IMG/VR virus record: IMGVR_UViG_3300047362_000015
Coordinates: 1 to 36,173 of that record
DNA length: 36,173 bases
From: a virus
Strand: one strand, 5' to 3'
Within the stretch, counting starts at the first letter, position 1. Every line of letters begins with the position of its first letter. The notes under the pieces were generated by a model. It did not search any database. It worked only from the letters and a program-made list of their open reading frames with translations, and was not told the DNA's origin. Below, in pieces: positions 135 through 36,173 of this stretch. The translations under genes and the position numbers were made by a program.

Positions 135-377
135 CTACTTCCTTTGTTTGCGATCCAAAAGTGCCTCTGCCGCAAGCGCAGCGTCGAGGGCAAATTCGAT
201 CTGGTTAAGCGCACGGATCATCGCGTGCGCCTCTTCACGGGCAGCCACGTCAGCCGCCCCACTGCTCGCAAAAACCTGCATTTGGTTTTCGCGCACACTC
301 TGCATGAACTGCTGAAATGCAGTATCGCTTTTCAAACGACGTGCCTCATCGGCCTCTATGCGTATTTCTGTTGTCAT
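135..377 (-). CDS. Small protein between portal and scaffold
   Basis: An 80-residue protein, helical and rich in Ala, Glu and Arg, with no membrane segment. Its ATG overlaps the stop codon of the portal gene in an ATGA arrangement, and its own stop is 5 nt upstream of the scaffold start, so it is translationally coupled within the head operon. I do not recognise a named family. Its place between portal and scaffold suggests a head-assembly accessory role (inference). It could equally be a small non-structural protein. Confidence 0.8.
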   Translation of the reverse strand: MTTEIRIEADEARRLKSDTAFQQFMQSVRENQMQVFASSGAADVAAREEAHAMIRALNQIEFALDAALAAEALLDRKQRK

Positions 378-2458
378 TGTTGTGGTGTCCCTTGAGCCAT
401 GCCGCCGATCATGCGCATTTTCTCTTGCTCGGCCTGCACACGGGCAACGTCAACGGCTGTGCCGTATTCGCCATAAATCTTTGCCGCGTCCACCATTAAA
501 TCTTGCGCCATCTGATCTCGCTTGAGATCGTCATTGGCCGCTGCCTTCTGCATTTCTAACTGCAACTTGGCCATGTCAGTTTGGACTTTCGCCTGAGCCT
601 TCATTTGCTCTGCCTGCAAGAACGCAGCGTTTGGATCAGCCGCCTGACCTTGCTGTGCTTGCGCCTGTTGCTGCATCTGCAACATTTGCATTTCAATCTC
701 TGGTGTGATTGGCGCAAAGTAACGGTCAGCGTTGCGTATGCCAGAAACAGCCAACTGATCCGCCAGCGTATTGCGAATGTTGGTCAAGCTGACCAGACCA
801 TTCATCGGGCCGTAGTTCTGATAAACCATCGTCTGCATTTGCAGTGCTTGGTTCAACGCCATCGCCTTCTCTTCCTCACGGCCAGTGCCGAGGCCCACAT
901 TAATGCTCACGTCCATTGACTGATCCCAGACGCGTGGATCAACTGGCACAAACGCACCATTCATCCGCATCATCTGCTCTTCGTCAACATTCTTGCTCAT
1001 CAAACGCAGCATAATGCCAAACAAGTCACGCATACCGTCTGCAAGGTTGCGAACCATAACCTCAACCTGACCCGCTGCGGCCTGCACAGTGGCCTGCACA
1101 GCGGCCTTTGTAGTTGACTGCATTGCATCAGGGTCTAGGCCCATTGAGGCCCTGGAAACGCCTGTCTTGCTCTCTACGAGGCCATCTAGGTATGTCAGCG
1201 CGCCGAGTGTCTGGCCTGCGGTAAATGGAACGGATAATTCCTGCACAGAACCCGGTGCGCGCATACGCACAATTGCGCCGATTTCGTTGTTGAGTACGTC
1301 GTCAATGTTAACGGCGTTCTCTACAATGCCAAGGCGTGGGTTGTTTGTCATTGCCACGTTGTCAAGGATTGAGCGCAGCACAGACGTGGCTGCGTCTTGG
1401 TCATCCATAACAATCTCGGCCAGTGAGCGGCCATAGAATGTGTGTGGCTCTGGGTCCACCTCAAACTTGGCAAACGGCAACTCATCGCATGGCTCAAAGT
1501 CAAGCATTTCATATGACGTGCCGCCGCATATGATCTTGTGCAAAACCGGGATACCAGTGCCATCAACGTCAATGCGCATATACGCCTCTGTCACGGCAAC
1601 ATTGCGCATGGACGGGTCTTGCTCATCGTCATCAGACGTATCCATGTCATAGCCACGGCGCTCATACATTTCAGCTTCGGTCATGTCTGAACCGCTCTCA
1701 AAGCTGTCTAAGTTAAGCACTACGTCTGGGTCAAATCCCATCGCAATCAAGTCGCCTGCACGCATGTCAGTTCGGTGAGCTACAACGTAAGCGTCGGCAA
1801 GGCTGCGGGCGTCACGGTTAATAAAAAACTCTTCCGGCGGAACGCTCTCAATGCACAGCTCACCCATTTCCTTCTGGCGGCTGAGTTTAACGCTGTGAAT
1901 AGGTAGCTCAATCTCCATGCCCATTGGGTCAATCTCAATGGTCATTTCGGCAGTATGCTCAAGCACAGTCACGCTATCGTCTTCAATGAGATATGTGTAT
2001 TCATCGTCAGATAGGTCGGTGAACGTGTAAATCTCCGCCTCTGGATACGTCATCCAGTATGCCTTCACGATACCTTGCTTTTTGACCAGCGCATCTTGGA
2101 AGGCGTCATTCATCACGCGGTAGCCGTTTAGCCGGGTAAACTCATGGTGCATAAACTCCGTGGCTTGCTCGGCCATTGCCACGTCTTCTGGACCCTGCGG
2201 AACAAACTCAACCGGCTTGGACGTACTGAGGAATATGCGCATCAGGCTTGGCTTAACGGAACGTACAGTATCCCGTACTTTTGTGGCTACAACCTTGCTG
2301 CGGCCTTCCTCGTAACCAAGGTCAACCTCGCCATCGTAATAGCGCTGGGCTTTGATCCGACCATCGCTGATCTCGCCCTCAACAAAGTCCACCGCATCCG
2401 ATATTGCGTCTTGGACAATGCCCTCAATTTCGCTGCGTGATTTTGGTTTAAGTTCCAT
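374..2458 (-). CDS. Portal protein (P22-like head-to-tail connector)
   Basis: A 694-residue protein that would form the dodecameric ring at the capsid vertex through which DNA is packaged and ejected. The length, the acidic N-terminal region with the KAQRYYDGE stretch near residue 40, the internal FTRLNGYR segment and the Gln/Ala-rich coiled C-terminus (roughly residues 590-694) fit the large P22-type portal family found in marine podoviruses. It sits directly before the 80-aa gene and scaffold and just after the ejection-protein genes. The ATG has a good AAAGGA site upstream. The family call rests on overall pattern and context, not on a catalytic motif. Confidence 0.85.
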   Translation of the reverse strand: MELKPKSRSEIEGIVQDAISDAVDFVEGEISDGRIKAQRYYDGEVDLGYEEGRSKVVATKVRDTVRSVKPSLMRIFLSTSKPVEFVPQGPEDVAMAEQATEFMHHEFTRLNGYRVMNDAFQDALVKKQGIVKAYWMTYPEAEIYTFTDLSDDEYTYLIEDDSVTVLEHTAEMTIEIDPMGMEIELPIHSVKLSRQKEMGELCIESVPPEEFFINRDARSLADAYVVAHRTDMRAGDLIAMGFDPDVVLNLDSFESGSDMTEAEMYERRGYDMDTSDDDEQDPSMRNVAVTEAYMRIDVDGTGIPVLHKIICGGTSYEMLDFEPCDELPFAKFEVDPEPHTFYGRSLAEIVMDDQDAATSVLRSILDNVAMTNNPRLGIVENAVNIDDVLNNEIGAIVRMRAPGSVQELSVPFTAGQTLGALTYLDGLVESKTGVSRASMGLDPDAMQSTTKAAVQATVQAAAGQVEVMVRNLADGMRDLFGIMLRLMSKNVDEEQMMRMNGAFVPVDPRVWDQSMDVSINVGLGTGREEEKAMALNQALQMQTMVYQNYGPMNGLVSLTNIRNTLADQLAVSGIRNADRYFAPITPEIEMQMLQMQQQAQAQQGQAADPNAAFLQAEQMKAQAKVQTDMAKLQLEMQKAAANDDLKRDQMAQDLMVDAAKIYGEYGTAVDVARVQAEQEKMRMIGGMAQGTPQQ

Positions 2459-2470
2459 TAATCGTGTCCT

Positions 2471-4417
2471 TTATTCGCTTGTAACCGCTGGCGTAGTAGC
2501 CATCAAGCCAACTTGCGTCAGCATGTCTGTCAGACGTTGCAGCTTTGTTTTGTCTTGCAGGCGTGAAGCCTCGCCCAACAGCTGACGGACCACTGCGTCA
2601 CGCTCGGCACCTTGCAGCGTGAGTATTTCGCCAACTTCACGGCGGATGTCGCCCGTGCCGTACATGATTTCGTCCATGATCTTATTGACAGGTGCAGCTA
2701 TGGCAGTCTTGACACGCTGACCGACGCTGGGTGCATTGAAGCTCTCAGGGTCACGAAGGTCTCGCAATGCAGACTGCGCCTCTGTGCGGAAGCCTGTTTG
2801 CGAGCCAGCAAGAACGTCAGATGAGGTTTTGGCAAACTCTTTTTCAGCAAGCAAGCGCTGGGTGATAGCTGCCGCACTTTCGTCGCCAACAAGCATCCTC
2901 AGTTTTTCAGCGTTCCAGCTTTTTCCGAACTCACCCCAAGCGGCGGCTGCATCGTTGCGAGACGTTCCCATAAGGGAGCCAATGTAGTCCCGTGCGCCCT
3001 TCTGGAAAGCAGCTCGTTCCATGTCAGACATGCCTGCGAGCTTTGCTTCCAATTCACGCGGAGACAATGCAGATGTTTTGCCGCCAGTAAATACCTTTTC
3101 ACCGTCTTCAACAGCACGCTGAATGGCGGAAGCCTCAGAGTAGCCTGATCGAGCCGCTGCATAACTTGGCAGCTCATCCAACTTATCGTCAATTTTGTGC
3201 AGGAATGGCTTGAGGTTTACAGCAACGCTTCCACCCTCTTTAAATATAACGTCGCTCAATGCTGATCTGACGTTATGCAGCTTCTCAGCGCTAACGTCGC
3301 CTTTTGTGCCTAAATCTTTCAACACAGCATTCATTTGAGAGCGAACCGAGCGTGAAGCATCCTTGCCGTACAGAACCAGTGCGCTGCGCAGTGTGTTTAC
3401 ATCAAACATTTTATCGCTTTGAGTGGCAGCCTCATACATTGGGCCAAGCACGCCAGACTTGCGCTCTTGCTGAGCCAATGTTTCTTCAAACCCTACGTTT
3501 GGCCGGTCAATGCGCTGCGTCATCACATCTTCAACACGCTGACCTGCGCCTGCACCGCGAGCGCCTATTTCGCGGGTCAAAACCTCTTGGCCTTGGCCGG
3601 GGATGGTCGCCAAACCTTGAGCCAAGGTGCGGGGGCGGCCCGGAACGTCGGCCAGCATAGCTTCTGGACCAAGGCTTTTGAGATATGACTGAATGTCCTG
3701 AGCTGTCGCTTGAGGGCCAGACAGCTGCCCAGCCACCCTGCGTGATGCTGCGCCACTGTACCCACCGGCACCGCGTCGAGTTAAGTTCTGCGCGCCGCGT
3801 GCAGCTGCGCTGGTCACTCGACCAGCTACAGGTGAAACCATGCCGATTGTGCCGCCGACCGCAGTGGACAGAGGGTCAATTTCTGAAACTCTTTCAGTGA
3901 AGCCACCTTCGCCACGACCGAATTGTGGCAGAGCTGTGGCCGTAGCGCCAACGCCGCCAGACGTGGCTATCTGACCCAAAACGGGTAACTTTGATCCAGC
4001 TTTGAACGCCACGCCGCCGGGTGCAACCATGCTCGTGACTGCGCCGGAGGTTTGGCCACTGGAGTATTGCTCGGGGGCTAGAAGCTGCAATGCTTCGTCA
4101 ATCTGGCGCTGAAGGTCGCGGTATTTAGCGTAAGCTGCCTTTGCGCCTTCCATGTCGCGCTTCGCTATTAGCTCATTGGCAAAGTTGTATGCGCCGCGAG
4201 CCTCGTCATTTAGGTTCATCAGCGCGCCAGCTGTAAAGCCGCCGTATGTGGCACGAGTTTCAAGCTCGGCTTGCTTGGCAGGCTTGCGCTTCTCACGAGC
4301 GCGGTCCAATGCGGCCTGCTCGCTTGCTGTGATTGTACCGTTAGCCTCTAGTTTCTCCAAAACCTTAATAGCTTGAAGAATTTGTGAGGACTCCGCCGAT
4401 GTCATCGTTTCCGCCAT
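2471..4417 (-). CDS. Large internal virion / DNA-ejection protein candidate
   Basis: A 648-residue protein, strongly helical and Ala/Gly-rich, next to the portal gene, where podoviruses usually encode proteins ejected with the DNA. Residues about 115-210 hold Gly/Ala-rich apolar stretches (VAPGGVAFKAGSKLPVLG, then a similar run near TAVGGTIGMVSPVAG) that could insert in membranes. The rest is helical with repeated KEFAKT- and ERAAF-type segments. I chose the ATG at 4417 because AAGGAG lies 7 nt upstream. An in-frame GTG at 4438 has no such site. The gene starts 10 nt after the lysozyme-domain protein stops. Function is inferred from position and composition. Confidence 0.75.
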   Translation of the reverse strand: MAETMTSAESSQILQAIKVLEKLEANGTITASEQAALDRAREKRKPAKQAELETRATYGGFTAGALMNLNDEARGAYNFANELIAKRDMEGAKAAYAKYRDLQRQIDEALQLLAPEQYSSGQTSGAVTSMVAPGGVAFKAGSKLPVLGQIATSGGVGATATALPQFGRGEGGFTERVSEIDPLSTAVGGTIGMVSPVAGRVTSAAARGAQNLTRRGAGGYSGAASRRVAGQLSGPQATAQDIQSYLKSLGPEAMLADVPGRPRTLAQGLATIPGQGQEVLTREIGARGAGAGQRVEDVMTQRIDRPNVGFEETLAQQERKSGVLGPMYEAATQSDKMFDVNTLRSALVLYGKDASRSVRSQMNAVLKDLGTKGDVSAEKLHNVRSALSDVIFKEGGSVAVNLKPFLHKIDDKLDELPSYAAARSGYSEASAIQRAVEDGEKVFTGGKTSALSPRELEAKLAGMSDMERAAFQKGARDYIGSLMGTSRNDAAAAWGEFGKSWNAEKLRMLVGDESAAAITQRLLAEKEFAKTSSDVLAGSQTGFRTEAQSALRDLRDPESFNAPSVGQRVKTAIAAPVNKIMDEIMYGTGDIRREVGEILTLQGAERDAVVRQLLGEASRLQDKTKLQRLTDMLTQVGLMATTPAVTSE

Positions 4418-4427
4418 AGTAGGCTCC

Positions 4428-6038
4428 TTATCCACCACCCAAAATATCTAAAGCATCTTGGCGAGTTAAGCCACCAGCTTCGCCGTCACCAGCTGGAGCA
4501 TTGAAGCCTGCAAACGGGTCTGGTCGGCTGTTCAGTAGCTCAAACGCTTGAGCTTGCGTGATTTCCCCTTTACGCAAGCGCTGCACAATCCTACCGCCCT
4601 CTGCATCATACTCGGCCAGACCGCGCATTGTATTAATGATAATTTGGTTGCCGCCCGGCGAGTTGATTATGCGCGGCAGAGACCGCTTGAAAAGCTCCAA
4701 ATCTGCGTCTGACATTGGGCCAGACCCCGGAGGCCGTTGCGCTGGAACAAGGGCGCTTATAAGTGCATTTGCCGCTTGAATGTCATCAAGCCCTTGCGTC
4801 TGAATGCCAAAGTTTCCTGCGAACTCCTTAACGCTTGCGCCCATGCCGCTGTCAATGTTGCTTAGCAATGCCTCAAGGCGACCAATTTGTGCAAGGCTTC
4901 GGGACGCTGTTGCGCCAACGCCAGCAACTTTAGCCAGAGCCGCTGCGTCCAGTTCTGCAAACTTTTCTCCAAACTTTTTGTCGCCAGCGGCCGCCACGGT
5001 TGTGGAAATATTAACTCCACCGCCACCAATTTTACTCGCAGTGCCATCGGGCTTCAAATTATAAAGGCCGGGGTCAATCTCAGCGCCGGGGAACATTTGG
5101 CGCAAAACTGAAGCGTCAACAACTTTGCCCTTTTCCTTCGGCGTAGCAAGTAACTGCCCAGCCGCATCGGCCGGAGAAATCATGCCGCGCTTAAGCATAT
5201 CAGCCAGGTCATCACGACCTCTGGCCCGCAGCATTTCAATAGTTCTATTCTTGTTCCCAGAAGCAACCCGTTGCGCGCCCTGCTTCCGAATAGCCTCGCC
5301 ACCGCCACGCAGTTCTGGCAAAATAAGCGGGTCAAGCGCAGCGGCAACAGTTTGAAGACCCGTCAACCCAGTTTGCGGATTAACAGCAGTCGCCTTGTCT
5401 TTTAGAGTTGACAGAAGACCGCGCAGCCCGCCTTGCTGCTGCATGTTGGGCGCGTTGTAAGTTTCTTCGCCGCCCATCATATATGGAGGCTTATTCGAAA
5501 TGGCCATGTCTTGACCCCCTTGATTGCTTGTAAGTAAACCGCCACTGGCAGTGGTCGCTGGCAGTGATGTAATGTCTGACACGTCAACGCCTGCAAATTT
5601 GGCCAGATCATCCATCCGGCTACCGCGCCATTGCGCAATGCCATATGTGCCTTTGCCGCCTGCCATAGTGTTGCGAGCGTCTGGGTTCATGTCTTGATAG
5701 CTCTCAGCCATCAATCGACCAGTGACGCCAGCGGCCTGCTGCGGAGTGAGACCTTTCTGCGTCAAATACCCGTAAGCAAACTTTGCGTTGGGCGAGATCA
5801 CACCGGGATTGGACGTACCATCAGCCATTGCCGCGAAAACGCTGTTGGCGTAACCCCGAGCCTTTTCATCGCCAGCGCCGCCAGAGCGCTCATAGTATTT
5901 ATCCCACAGCGTCGCATAGTCTTCTGGCGTTGAAGCGTTGGCCGTAAGAAACTTGCCAAAGCCAGACTTTTCCTTCCCCTGAACTTCATTCCAGAGAAAA
6001 TCCATTTGCGTTGAAAGAGGGATAAAACCTTGCGGCAT
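4428..6038 (-). CDS. Virion protein with a Phage_lysozyme2-like (tail lysozyme) domain
   Basis: A 536-residue virion protein likely to cut peptidoglycan during DNA entry. Residues about 83-150 look like the N-terminal half of the phage tail-lysozyme family: a GLTPQQAAGVTGRLMAES segment with the expected catalytic Glu at 112, then GTYGIAQWRGSR. The half that normally follows (QMDFLWNEV ... YYERSGG ... RGYANSVF) is found before it, at residues 11-70, so the domain appears circularly permuted. The remainder is Gly/Ala-rich and helical with no recognised domain. It overlaps the preceding gene by one base (TAATG). Lysozyme family confidence is moderate to high. The permutation is read by eye. Confidence 0.75.
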   Translation of the reverse strand: MPQGFIPLSTQMDFLWNEVQGKEKSGFGKFLTANASTPEDYATLWDKYYERSGGAGDEKARGYANSVFAAMADGTSNPGVISPNAKFAYGYLTQKGLTPQQAAGVTGRLMAESYQDMNPDARNTMAGGKGTYGIAQWRGSRMDDLAKFAGVDVSDITSLPATTASGGLLTSNQGGQDMAISNKPPYMMGGEETYNAPNMQQQGGLRGLLSTLKDKATAVNPQTGLTGLQTVAAALDPLILPELRGGGEAIRKQGAQRVASGNKNRTIEMLRARGRDDLADMLKRGMISPADAAGQLLATPKEKGKVVDASVLRQMFPGAEIDPGLYNLKPDGTASKIGGGGVNISTTVAAAGDKKFGEKFAELDAAALAKVAGVGATASRSLAQIGRLEALLSNIDSGMGASVKEFAGNFGIQTQGLDDIQAANALISALVPAQRPPGSGPMSDADLELFKRSLPRIINSPGGNQIIINTMRGLAEYDAEGGRIVQRLRKGEITQAQAFELLNSRPDPFAGFNAPAGDGEAGGLTRQDALDILGGG

Positions 6039-7420
6039 TACTTATACCCCATTGCCTTGCGCTTGGCGTCCATGAACGGGCGAATAACCAGTTTAAGAGC
6101 TGGCACTTTTGCCACAACTTTTGCCACATTTTCGCCATATTTGCTGTACGCTTTGTAGAACCAATCTGGTGAATAACCAATAACCCACTCGCGGAATTGT
6201 AGCCACTTTGGATCATCCTCGCCGTAAACTTCACGGGCAACCCAACACATTGCTTGAGCGCCAAGTTGCAGATAGTTAAACAAGCCGGGCTTCATAGTGC
6301 TAGTTGTGCTTTCTGGAGCTGGCGCTGCACCCAACGCGGCAAGCGGCAATCCGAGTGATTGCTGCGGTGCGCCAATTGCGCCTGCATATTGCCCGCGAGC
6401 CGCATCAATAAGCTGCTGCTGCAAGCCCTGCTGCATTAAGCCCTGCTTCATTTGTTGGTTCTGGATGGCCATTGAGGTGTCAAACGCTTGCCTGCCAAGG
6501 TCGCCCATTTGACCAGATGCGCCTAGGCGAAGCTGAGCGCCCTGTAAGCCAGCGCCTTGGTTTAGCTGCTGGGCCGTCATGCCTTGCGTAGCACCAAACT
6601 GGCGTTGCTGATTTAGGGCTGCTTGGTTTGCCAATGCAGCTTGGTTTGCTGCTGCCGCGCCAAACTGGCCAGCTTGGTTGAGCGCAGCTTGATTGGCCAA
6701 GTTTACCTGCTGCCCAAGTTGTGCGGTTGTAGTTCCTGCCTGCAAATTTGCGCCTTGATTGGCCAATGCTGCCTGCATTTGCGTTGCAATGTCTTGCCCT
6801 GCAAGCTGCTGCGCCTGTTGGTATCCAGCTTGGCGTAAGCCTGACACCATTCGGGCCGCTTGGTCTGCATATGACTTGCGGGTTTCAGCTTCGGCAATAC
6901 CTTGCCTTGAACCACCAAATGCGCGGGCAGCCGTAGCTTGCGCCCCCATTTGGTTTAATGCTTTTTCTTGAGCGCCACCAAGGTCAGTTAATGACTGCTG
7001 AACGACTTGGCTTTCGTATGGGTTAGTGTACGCGCCAAGGTTAGTGCCAGCGATTTGCCCGGCGCTAACTTGGTCTGCCGTCAACCCAGCCTGTTGAGCT
7101 GCACGCGCTGCATCGTAGCCTTGGCTTGCAGCTTGAGCCGCTGTGTAATCAGTGGCCTTAACCTGCATGGGCTGATAACCCATTGCCGCCCGAGTACCCT
7201 GCATGGCTTGTTGCAAACCGCTTGCTGCTGCTTGGTTAACGTTGAACCGACGGGGTTGGGGGAGCGGTGCGTAACCGGGAGAGGCCGTGGGTTGAGTGGG
7301 CGCTGGAACTGCTGGCATGCCACCGCCACCGCCAGCCCCCTTTCCGGGTCCAGACGGCGTACCAGCCGGCATTGGACCCATTGTAAGGGCATTTGGACTT
7401 CCCGCTGCTGAACTACCCAT
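6038..7420 (-). CDS. Internal virion protein, Gln/Ala-rich, with C-terminal CWxAREVYG domain
   Basis: A 460-residue protein. The N-terminal 60 residues are Gly/Pro-rich. Residues about 60-330 are dominated by Ala, Gln and Asn with short internal repeats (NQAALNQ, QQGLQQQ) and should be helical. The last 70 residues form a distinct domain beginning MCWVAREVYGEDDPKW and containing FREWVIGYSPDWF and a PFMDAKRKAMGYK end. I know this C-terminal module from podoviral ejection-type proteins but not its function. The neighbouring 356-aa protein ends in a related Cys/Trp-rich domain. It begins 1 nt after that gene's stop, with AAGGA upstream. Confidence 0.7.
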   Translation of the reverse strand: MGSSAAGSPNALTMGPMPAGTPSGPGKGAGGGGGMPAVPAPTQPTASPGYAPLPQPRRFNVNQAAASGLQQAMQGTRAAMGYQPMQVKATDYTAAQAASQGYDAARAAQQAGLTADQVSAGQIAGTNLGAYTNPYESQVVQQSLTDLGGAQEKALNQMGAQATAARAFGGSRQGIAEAETRKSYADQAARMVSGLRQAGYQQAQQLAGQDIATQMQAALANQGANLQAGTTTAQLGQQVNLANQAALNQAGQFGAAAANQAALANQAALNQQRQFGATQGMTAQQLNQGAGLQGAQLRLGASGQMGDLGRQAFDTSMAIQNQQMKQGLMQQGLQQQLIDAARGQYAGAIGAPQQSLGLPLAALGAAPAPESTTSTMKPGLFNYLQLGAQAMCWVAREVYGEDDPKWLQFREWVIGYSPDWFYKAYSKYGENVAKVVAKVPALKLVIRPFMDAKRKAMGYK

Positions 7421-30886: not shown

Positions 30887-31507
30887 CTAGGCCATGAGCC
30901 AAGTGTGAATTTTTTTGCTCTGGTTGCTTCGATCATCCAGCCCGTGATAACCGCCATTCACGCGGCGCGTGATGCGCTTGATGGCGTCATCCGTCACGCC
31001 CTCATCGGCAATCTTAAACAAGCCATTCTTCTCGAAAAACCACAGCGCAGTCTCAAATGCGTAGTCGTCGGCGACCAAGTCTGGGTCTGTCATAACCTTC
31101 GGCACGCCCATGTCAGACGCAAACGAGCGATAGTTGTTGCGCCCGGTGAGTTGGAGAAATCCACGGCCAATGTATAGGCTCGCCTGAGCTTCATTCTCGT
31201 TACCCATGCGGCCAGCGTAAACCTTGCCAGCAAGCCCGTTTGGGTTCTTGGCGTATGGTTCTGCATCTTCAACAGTTGGGAAGCGCGAGGGCCACACAGC
31301 TTGTATGCGCTCTGGTGAGCTGTAGTACAGGCTTTCACGGGTGCGCTTGAAGCCACCGCTTTCGTGTGACGCCTGCCCCATCAAGTGTGCGCCGCGCGCC
31401 GGGGATAGGTTAAAATACTTTGCGATTGCTCGCGCCGTATTCGGCCCAAACTCACCATCGGGAGTTGACCCGATTTTAGTTTGGAGACTAGACATTGCCT
31501 TGCTCAT
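30887..31507 (-). CDS. Endolysin, GH19 chitinase/lysozyme-like
   Basis: A 206-residue lysis enzyme that would cut the glycan strands of peptidoglycan. HLMGQASHESGGF contains the expected catalytic Glu (49). YIGRGFLQLTGRNNYRSF (112-129) is the GH19 signature region. Residues 6-34 (SLQTKIGSTPDGEFGPNTARAIAKY) look like a shortened peptidoglycan-binding repeat. There is no signal peptide, so it depends on a holin for export. I chose the ATG at 31507, which overlaps the upstream stop by 4 nt, over a start 69 nt earlier. Confidence 0.9.
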   Translation of the reverse strand: MSKAMSSLQTKIGSTPDGEFGPNTARAIAKYFNLSPARGAHLMGQASHESGGFKRTRESLYYSSPERIQAVWPSRFPTVEDAEPYAKNPNGLAGKVYAGRMGNENEAQASLYIGRGFLQLTGRNNYRSFASDMGVPKVMTDPDLVADDYAFETALWFFEKNGLFKIADEGVTDDAIKRITRRVNGGYHGLDDRSNQSKKIHTWLMA

Positions 31508-31653
31508 GCTGTTCTCGTTTTCTTTGCTGTCTTTTTCTTGGGCTTTTGGCCCTTGGCCACGGCAAGGTTGCTCCAAGCGTTTGGATATTTAACGCCCCTT
31601 TTAGCAGACATTGCTTTGGCCTTAGCCTTTTGTGCAGGTGTGAGCTTTGCCAT
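31504..31653 (-). CDS. Lys-rich 49-residue protein in the lysis cassette
   Basis: A small, very basic protein (MAKLTPAQKAKAKAMSAKRG, YPNAWSNLAVAKG, then KPKKKTAKKTRTA). A GAGG site precedes its ATG by about 11 nt, and its stop overlaps the endolysin start (ATGA). It resembles Lys-rich small proteins of marine phages, but no function is known to me. DNA or envelope contact is possible. Confidence 0.65.
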   Translation of the reverse strand: MAKLTPAQKAKAKAMSAKRGVKYPNAWSNLAVAKGQKPKKKTAKKTRTA

Positions 31654-34223: not shown

Positions 34224-35171
34224 TTATGAAGTTGTACAGTCGGCAATGATGCCGTTTGCAGCTTCATTTTTGGCGCAGAGTGTGAGTTCTGTCACAACTT
34301 GGCGAGTAGTGTTGTCGCCAGTTTTTGCCAATGCCACGTTTTTCGTGCCACGCAAGGAGGCAACTTCCCACATATCGTCCTGCATAACGAATACGTCACG
34401 CGAACGGTTCTCACGGCTCGGCATGAATTCTACGCTCCCCCATGGGGTTACATATACTGCCAAGGATTTAACAACGCGCTCATCGCCAGCTTGTACGCTG
34501 GAACGCTGGTTGTTGTTACCAGTGAAGCCCAGAGCTACATTCATTTGGAATGCAGAGAGATACACTGTGTCTGGCTTACCACCAGCAACCCAGATTGACT
34601 GCATAACAGTGTCAAAGTTGGCTTGTGAGAAGGCAGCTTGTGTGCCGTCTGTACGGGCGTCTGTACCGTCGCCGGTTGGGTCTGCACCGCCGGAACCGGC
34701 AACAGTGTTTGTTGTCAACCAAGCTGGTGCGCCAGCAAGTTCACGAGCTGTTGTGGAGTTACCAGCTGCGCGAGCGTTGTTTGCAAACAAAGCCTTTTCG
34801 ATGTCCAATTTTTGCTCTTTGGCAATCTTCAAGGTTTGATATGCAATCTCTTTTGCGCGACCGGCGTTGTCAACATTATCGTCGGAGTCGGATACGACAA
34901 CGGCGTTTTTGAAGATTTGCGTGTAGTTGCCCAAACGAGTTGTCGCTGCGCGAGCTTCGGCAGTAGTTGTGTCACCCTCTATATGAGCATTAACAGAGGA
35001 AGCACGGAGCGAGTCTGTCTGCCACTCTACGAGAGTATTCTTTGCGGCCTTTTTAGCAGCTTTGCTGTAAAATGGCGTTTCCTCTGGCGAAATGTTGTGG
35101 ATAACATTGCTGAGGTCTTCACGGATGCCTACGGAATCATAGGTATCAAATGTGTTGGTTGGCTGTGCCAT
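34224..35171 (-). CDS. Major capsid protein (SU10-like, DUF5309 type)
   Basis: A 315-residue protein that would form the HK97-fold shell. The N-terminal region (DLSNVIHNISPEETPFYSKA, about residues 19-38) is a hallmark of the SU10-type major capsid family. The central part has EIAYQTLKIAKEQKLDIEKALFANN, and the late part VYVTPWGSVEFMPSRENRSRDVFVMQDDMWEVA. It follows the scaffold gene by 20 nt, has a strong GAAAGGA site, and is followed by an intrinsic terminator, as expected for the most abundant protein. The precise capsid size is not readable from this. Confidence 0.9.
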   Translation of the reverse strand: MAQPTNTFDTYDSVGIREDLSNVIHNISPEETPFYSKAAKKAAKNTLVEWQTDSLRASSVNAHIEGDTTTAEARAATTRLGNYTQIFKNAVVVSDSDDNVDNAGRAKEIAYQTLKIAKEQKLDIEKALFANNARAAGNSTTARELAGAPAWLTTNTVAGSGGADPTGDGTDARTDGTQAAFSQANFDTVMQSIWVAGGKPDTVYLSAFQMNVALGFTGNNNQRSSVQAGDERVVKSLAVYVTPWGSVEFMPSRENRSRDVFVMQDDMWEVASLRGTKNVALAKTGDNTTRQVVTELTLCAKNEAANGIIADCTTS

Positions 35172-35191
35172 TAGTGTGTCCTTTCAAAGAC

Positions 35192-36173
35192 TTACTGATT
35201 TAAGATCAGGCTCAATGCGTCTTCCATAGAGCCAGTTTTCTGCAAGCGCTGTTGCGCTTTTTTACGAGTTGCAGCGTTACTATCAACACGCTTCTTTGCA
35301 CCAGCTTTCACCACAGGCCGGGCTTTCTCACCCTTGGACTGCGCTGATTTACGCTTTGCCACCAGCTCACGATATTTGCGCGCATCATTTAACGCCCGCA
35401 CATATCTAGCATCGGTTACGCCTTGCATTTCCTCGGCGCTAAAGCCGTAATCCATGCCTGTTTTAACCAATGCGTTTTTTATCACCTCACCCTTTTCAGG
35501 ATCGGCAATCTCAGGAATATGCTGCGTCAGAACTTGTGCTTGCTCTGCAAGGTAGGTTTGGTGAGCCTCTTGCTGAGCCTGCATGTTTTGCTGCTGCATA
35601 GCCTGCATCTGGAACATATTTTGGTCATACTGTGCCTTGCTCTCGTCATACTTGAGCTTTTCTTCCATGTACCCGATTGGGTCACTTTCAAACAACTCTC
35701 GCGTTGGCGGGATTGGAGCTTGCAGTCCACCATTTTGTGCTTGCTGATACAAAGCAGCGACTTGCTGTTGCTGCTGTTGCAATACGGCTGCCTGCTGTTC
35801 GATTTGCTTTCGCGCCTCGGCAGCTTCTTGGAACCGTTTATTAATTGCCGCTTGTCCCGCAGCAGATTGCTTTAACTGATCCAGTGTCCATTGCTCTTCC
35901 TTGCCGTCAACTTTAACGGAGAAAACATTGGTGTCTTCAGCTGGTGCTTCTACTAGGTCTTCGTCGTCAATTTCGACACCATCAAGATCGTCTTGATCTT
36001 CGCTGGATGCCTCAACGTCATCTTGCTCTTCGGCTGCAACCTCAATTTCTTCAGTCTGATCGTCATCAGGCTCAATCATTGCGTCCACAGCTTCGTCAAA
36101 ATTATTGTCCTCAGAAGTTTCCTCTGAGGGTGCGAGTAGGCTTTCTACTGCGTCATCTAGGGTAGTCGATTCC
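35192..36173 (-). CDS. Scaffolding protein, main part (continues at 1-129)
   Basis: The body of an acidic, helical protein that would guide capsid assembly. It has an Asp/Glu-rich N-terminal region (EEQDDVEASSEDQDD), a WTLDQLKQSAAGQAAINKRFQEA segment, a Gln-rich coiled region (QQQQQVAALYQQAQNG and a later QQQNMQAQQEAHQ) and a basic C-terminus (RPVVKAGAKKRVDS ... SLILNQ). The window ends one codon after its true start, which is at 129. The joined protein has 327 residues. Its last in-window codons duplicate bases 1-127. Confidence 0.85.
   Translation of the reverse strand, partial: ESTTLDDAVESLLAPSEETSEDNNFDEAVDAMIEPDDDQTEEIEVAAEEQDDVEASSEDQDDLDGVEIDDEDLVEAPAEDTNVFSVKVDGKEEQWTLDQLKQSAAGQAAINKRFQEAAEARKQIEQQAAVLQQQQQQVAALYQQAQNGGLQAPIPPTRELFESDPIGYMEEKLKYDESKAQYDQNMFQMQAMQQQNMQAQQEAHQTYLAEQAQVLTQHIPEIADPEKGEVIKNALVKTGMDYGFSAEEMQGVTDARYVRALNDARKYRELVAKRKSAQSKGEKARPVVKAGAKKRVDSNAATRKKAQQRLQKTGSMEDALSLILNQ
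36047..36173. repeat. Terminal direct repeat, right copy
   Basis: Identical to bases 1-127. Removing one copy gives a circular length of 36,046 bp with an uninterrupted scaffold gene. Confidence 0.95.

Follow-up and report, generated by a model that had tools for sequence, protein, structure and literature searches.

A predicted virion protein encoded on the minus strand of a 36,173-nucleotide viral record (IMG/VR IMGVR_UViG_3300047362_000015, positions 1 to 36,173; the window) begins with a tail-lysozyme domain whose two halves appear in reversed order, which raises the question of whether the domain is a genuine circular permutation, and whether it could still serve as an enzyme. The evidence points, with a probability of roughly 80 %, to the first ~160 residues of this protein (P0001) being a naturally circularly permuted muramidase domain of the Phage_lysozyme2 (phi29 gp13-type) family with a role in entry. 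The features concerned are the following.

4428..6038, minus strand: gene of the 536-aa virion protein P0001, the N-terminus of which is the permuted lysozyme domain (ORF list)
5826..6017, minus strand: second half of Phage_lysozyme2, placed first; residues 8-71, profile positions 75-140 (PF18013)
5790..5825, minus strand: linker of ~12 residues (72-83) from the old C-terminus to the old N-terminus (gap between the matches, crossed unbroken by the doubled profile)
5586..5789, minus strand: first half of Phage_lysozyme2, placed second; residues 84-151, profile positions 2-70, with the catalytic-Glu position inside (PF18013)
5703..5705, minus strand: Glu112 codon, aligned with phi29 gp13 Glu45 (phmmer against 3csr; position counted off the alignment)
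4968..5546, minus strand: low-complexity and helical stretch, residues 165-357, between the enzyme head and the C-terminal domain (boundaries approximate)
4431..4967, minus strand: C-terminal domain, residues 358-536, common to phages with other or no cell-wall hydrolase heads
6038..7420, minus strand: upstream gene P0002 (460 aa), overlapping the P0001 ATG; at least two distant relatives have a homologue fused ahead of their permuted domain
374..2458, minus strand: SU10-like portal protein gene, two genes downstream of P0001 (PF23899, E 1e-191)
2471-4438: neighbour gene of P0001 with a phrog_5880 match (PHROG match)
30887-31576: endolysin candidate (phrog_181), separate from P0001 (PHROG match)

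Both halves are recognised independently by the PF18013 profile, which has a length of 140 positions and a curated cut-off of 28.2 bits. Taken alone, residues 8-71 match positions 75-140 (E 1.3e-7, 32.3 bits) and the second-placed half matches positions 2-70 (E 4.7e-15, 56.4 bits), so that each exceeds the cut-off by itself; the whole protein scores 79.3 bits. Since the profile halves run 75-140 and then 2-66, the domain is classified as a permuted variant and not as an ordinary PF18013 member. No PF18013 match was found elsewhere in the 36-kb record. The PHROGs annotation of P0001 caught the second piece only, and residues 165-357 yielded no Pfam or PHROG match above cut-off. These results largely bear out the sequence-only reading of the locus: the segment that it singled out, 5589-6038 on the minus strand, corresponds to residues 1-150 of the ORF at 4428-6038 and contains the motifs that it quoted, the half that normally comes last does come first, and, as it stated, there is no further copy of either half. 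The boundaries that it gave, residues 11-70 and 83-150, are replaced by 8-71 and 84-150, and its reservation that residues 11-70 might fall in another family was rejected, as residues 8-71 belong to PF18013 itself (32.3 bits against the cut-off of 28.2).

The ATG of P0001 overlaps the stop of the upstream gene P0002 and is preceded, two codons upstream, by an in-frame TAA, which fixes the N-terminus of the protein. A misplaced start or a hidden upstream half is excluded by this TAA together with the presence of only two PF18013 matches in the record.

The completeness of the domain was assessed with a canonical profile built from 39 ordinary domains and used in a single (146 positions) and a doubled (292 positions) form. 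Against the doubled profile, all 18 permuted sequences align in one piece that starts at 75-78 and ends at 203-222, running from position 76 to 146 and then from 1 to about 57-76. For the window protein, this one-piece alignment scores 119 bits. Against the single profile, the same 18 sequences give two pieces in the wrong order, the second-half piece alone being non-significant in the much diverged L146 and L148 (5.9 and 4.1 bits). Chance similarity was ruled out, as none of 900 shuffled copies reaches the 39-sequence profile at E<=10, and an earlier independent profile of nine sequences led to the same outcome (1/900 shuffles matched). Because the alignments of all 18 sequences cross the join of the doubled profile unbroken, the parent domain is, by this measure, present whole and once, cut once and with its old ends joined, thus forming one complete circle.

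Conservation extends to individual residues. Twelve positions were defined as invariant by identity in all 39 ordinary domains, and 11 of them are identical in every one of the 18 permuted sequences, including Glu112, Gln136, Arg141, Gln11, Glu18 and Glu50, while at the remaining one, profile position 128, the canonical Arg is replaced by Ala throughout the 18. Trp137, which occurs in 37/39 ordinary domains, is also retained, so that E112, G133, A135, Q136, W137 and R141 are found in 18/18 permuted sequences and the catalytic Glu and the GIAQW...R motif are both present. The position of Glu112 is occupied by Glu in 39/39 canonical domains as well as in 18/18 permuted ones. In the phmmer comparison, residues 15-72 of phi29 gp13 align with P0001 82-139, which places Glu112, in the second-placed half as proposed earlier, on gp13 Glu45 (3csr), which we take to be the catalytic residue of that enzyme. 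A second gp13 stretch (121-142 against P0001 34-55) scores below zero bits and is no evidence by itself.

The permuted form was sought further by scans of viral contigs, one of which yielded 59 loci. In 51 of these the permuted domain is full-length and has a single breakpoint, the 51 contigs including near-copies (six contigs of one type). Among the other eight, L039, L040, L169 and L173 are cut by the contig end and four are ordinary or ordinary-looking (L172 scored as ordinary; L155, L174 and L175 begin in ordinary order and match partly). The domain lies at the protein start in 40/51 and is internal to proteins of 1111-1492 aa in 11/51, and it shares between 41 % and 97 % identity with the domain of the window protein. 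The front part of two such long proteins, L138 and L139, matches P0002 with 42-44 % identity over short stretches, the matches of the others inspected being not significant. A stretch DRRLKxDIxRIG..., resembling the S74 intramolecular chaperone, was also noticed ahead of the permuted lysozyme in the fused 1111-1492-aa proteins (L138-L148).

This distribution bears on the explanation that the reversed order is an annotation or assembly artefact, produced by a frameshift, a chimeric contig or a wrong start. The metagenomic source and the failure to find the permuted form in an isolated phage would suit such an origin, but the same arrangement recurs in one open frame in 51 independently named contigs, in some of them inside proteins of 1111-1492 aa, and an in-frame stop lies ahead of the ATG. 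As many contigs share the same open frame, an artefact may be considered already refuted, the chance that it accounts for the locus being negligible.

The permuted domain occurs in two protein architectures, which are about 41-54 % identical within it. In a FastTree tree on matched columns, the 18 permuted sequences group together in a single clade (local support 0.935), which midpoint rooting places inside the ordinary domains. Because there is one clade and one breakpoint, the sequences favour a single origin of the permutation. The two groups have widely separated portals, to judge by PF23899: four first-group records match with E 1e-191 to 1e-195, two second-group records with 3e-18 and 6e-13, and five fragments from the second group gave no match. 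In one 63799-base record (G001), portal matches were observed at both ends (51-989 and 62232-63473), which suggests a terminal repeat or a duplicated portal. Since two distant phage groups share the arrangement, it is evidently no accident but, to judge from these comparisons, an old, maintained circular permutation that was inherited and kept. The central proposal of the sequence-only reading, a circular permutation of the tail-lysozyme domain, is thus confirmed at this level and extended to a conserved form (PF18013, doubled profile, 51 contigs).

The same observations weigh upon the possibility that the two segments are left-over halves of a former tandem array, decayed and no longer forming an enzyme. 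The loss of one canonical-invariant residue would be in keeping with decay, yet the two architectures have kept both halves, the Glu position and the breakpoint in spite of a domain identity of about 41-54 %, and the circle is complete, and we therefore regard a decayed remnant as quite improbable.

As to how the permutation arose, PMC2395249 gives tandem duplication followed by loss of the outer halves as the standard model for permutations, and the present domain may have originated in this way. The tandem-duplicate intermediate that had been proposed for a search among homologues was not found: among 181 sequences (the window and L001-L180, with many contigs present more than once), the open frames showed the second-first arrangement in 121 cases, the ordinary one in 16 and a single half in 12, and none contained three or more halves. 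A further 80 loci with ordinary domains were all single and ordinary; as there are at least 407 relatives, of which these were the 80 best, the absence of a tandem form weighs little. A broader alignment, used for a further scan of viral contigs, added no full-length permuted contig to those already found, and contigs of bacterial and archaeal genomes, scanned twice with narrow seed patterns, gave no permuted form. Plasmids and isolated phages gave mostly first-half matches, with 10 of 398 records covering 80 % or more of the query in a permissive phage search. Of the two-piece phage rows among the matches listed, those of the Moonbeam and Twort tail lysins were read and confirmed to be in ordinary order, and no isolated phage with the permuted form came to light among the rows read.

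A 170-residue AlphaFold2 model based on 16 permuted sequences is compact (mean pLDDT 85.4, pTM 0.85), with a mean pLDDT of 57 for residues 121-130 and predicted helices at 8-20, 24-31, 38-50, 57-72, 83-94, 99-113, 140-149 and 153-157. The corresponding model of the ordinary phage Twort domain (39 sequences; pLDDT 91.8, pTM 0.87) has helices at 6-18, 23-37, 59-70, 78-90, 94-100, 106-117 and 127-141. When the Twort helices are rotated, they pair one to one with those of the permuted model (lengths 13, 7, 12, 15, 13, 15 and 12 versus 13, 8, 13, 16, 12, 15 and 10), which adds only the short terminal helix 153-157.

The Twort model superposes on phi29 gp13 over 141 residues (Z 17.8, rmsd 2.7; Foldseek E 5.5e-5), and the permuted model over 76 residues (77-156; Z 2.6, rmsd 4.0; 3csq, VIA-align 2), with unrelated histone chains scoring above gp13 against the latter (Z 3.0-3.4, VIA-align 2). 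A Foldseek search of the PDB with the permuted model gave no match at E<=0.001 and a search of BFVD gave nothing significant, the best BFVD match covering 161 columns (local similarity probability 0.90, E 0.051, rmsd 18.8, TM 0.38). VIA-align 2 reported no lysozyme across the whole model, a result that is confined to the Foldseek-ranked chains listed and so excludes nothing. In our reading, gp13 is matched poorly because methods that follow chain order fail when the chain is permuted; an rmsd of 4.0 over one half is, however, higher than an intact half would be expected to give, and the poor match may also mean that the model is not lysozyme-like. The expectation that the two halves would pack together as in the family fold is thus supported in part, by the compact model (pTM 0.85) and the rotated helix order, and not by the gp13 comparison in chain order. 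Sequence conservation and the pTM together suggest that the lysozyme fold is closed. A BFVD entry from an uncultured Caudovirales phage, A0A6J5MAM7 (737 aa, named Peptidase M23), matches weakly over 161 columns and may possibly contain another permuted domain.

The structural results also bear on a three-dimensional domain swap, in which residues 8-72 of one copy would complete 83-157 of its neighbour and activity would require several copies to come together, for example in the ejected assembly. Such an exchange could be accommodated by halves that are joined by the ~12-residue linker only; the closed fold is not shown by the PDB comparison, and the best BFVD match (rmsd 18.8, TM 0.38) looks as if the placement of the parts differs between predicted models. 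On the other hand, the single-chain model is both compact and confident (pTM 0.85), and linkers of about this length (~12 residues) across the old ends are commonplace in permuted proteins. A swap is accordingly considered unlikely, and a permuted domain closing within a single chain is preferred.

The position of the domain within its protein indicates the setting in which it may act. The C-terminal domain, used as a query, retrieved relatives at 54 loci, in which it carries an SLT transglycosylase (L066, L088), a peptidase M15_3 (L083, L095), a glucosaminidase (L096) or an ordinary Phage_lysozyme2 head (L043; L079 by Pfam; L080 and L082 by profile; L081 in its record). The heads of L076, L087 and L093, in the same slot, have no Pfam match at E 0.01 and are possible unrecognised cell-wall hydrolases. 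In L078 the head is absent, with the gene order around P0005-like and P0002-like genes and the same strong portal type being kept. One C-terminal domain is thus combined with at least four unrelated hydrolase heads, with a lysozyme in ordinary or permuted order, or with none. Because the N-terminal heads differ on the same C-terminal domain, the head is, on these domain assignments, an exchangeable cell-wall hydrolase cassette, of which the permuted lysozyme is one version. The C-terminal domain motif GSGPMSDADLELFKxSLPR was noted in L043 and L066-L097, which form a natural head-swapping series. Ten relatives (L007, L010, L020, L024, L027, L029, L030, L031, L032 and L135) share residues 1 to about 283-329 and differ in their C-termini beyond this point; the P0001 gene therefore exchanges its tail end too.

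The neighbourhood of P0001 consists of structural genes, namely the SU10-like portal, the phrog_5880 protein and further virion proteins. The portal occupies one end of the record (1-2458), and genes for the scaffold and the major capsid protein occupy the opposite end (34224-36088) in the same orientation, as would be seen if a circular or permuted map had been opened between the portal and scaffold genes. The adjoining portal and structural genes, the separate endolysin candidate and the swappable hydrolase heads in the same slot provide the context of a virion-associated hydrolase. The earlier description of P0001 as an ejection protein fits this neighbourhood and the heads of its relatives, and the ejection role itself is a likely one.

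Judged by its conserved sequence, the permuted domain is probably an active muramidase used in DNA entry. The ordinary chain would have been cut between helices three and four, at about profile position 76, and its old ends joined by the ~12-residue linker, giving the helix order 4-5-6-7-1-2-beta-3. Most likely, the chain closes on itself to form a two-lobed lysozyme of the ordinary type, whose cleft would hold Glu112. By the general biology of virion-associated hydrolases, the protein is most likely packaged in the virion, leaves it with the DNA and enters the periplasm at ejection, where the head would hydrolyse glycan strands, opening the peptidoglycan locally and allowing the ejection machinery to cross the wall. 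It is also conceivable, although doubtful, that the permutation is itself functional, since chain ends at the lobe hinge could impose an obligate swap between ejected subunits, or an ordered refolding that begins with the second lobe once the protein has passed through the tail; wall digestion would then start only once the protein has been ejected.

A natural permutation that is readable in sequence, and whose unpermuted relatives sit on the same family of host proteins, offers a good opportunity to study origin and change of function, and the occurrence of ordinary, permuted and head-less forms on one C-terminal domain makes the cost or benefit of permutation measurable. Such permutations also carry a warning, as annotation by one ordered profile match reports permuted domains as a truncated fragment.

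Among known systems, the closest in family is the phi29 gp13 tail lysozyme (PF18013; PDB 3csq, 3csr): both halves of the P0001 domain match its profile, Glu112 falls on Glu45, 11/12 family-invariant positions are kept and the predicted helices are the same. The permuted domain differs from it in its reversed halves, its new ends between helices 3 and 4, the linker across the old ends and its different host protein. The Rhizobium phage RHph_I3_18 protein EVC14_015 and its relatives L079-L082 share the C-terminal domain (45-61 % identity) and a Phage_lysozyme2 head, but the latter is in ordinary order. The engineered circularly permuted T4 lysozyme (PDB 1P5C; listed in Table 1 of PMC2395249) illustrates that cutting and rejoining a lysozyme is feasible; it is man-made, belongs to another lysozyme family and is cut at residue 12. 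A natural permutation of this kind had been called unusual, which stands in part: a permuted lysozyme-fold core, with the catalytic-Glu helix placed after the other core helices, is described for the Enc34 endolysin (Sci Rep 2022, PMC8943055), so that permuted lysozymes as a kind are already known. The Glu helix of P0001 (99-113) likewise follows the second-half helices. According to the same paper, the Enc34 enzyme is a lysis endolysin without recognisable GH73/GH23 sequence similarity, recognised from structure only, whereas the P0001 permutation is readable in sequence, lies within a named Pfam family and is carried by a virion protein. No report of a permuted Phage_lysozyme2 was found in the open-access papers searched. 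As far as these searches reach, it is the family, the clarity at the sequence level and the virion setting that are new.
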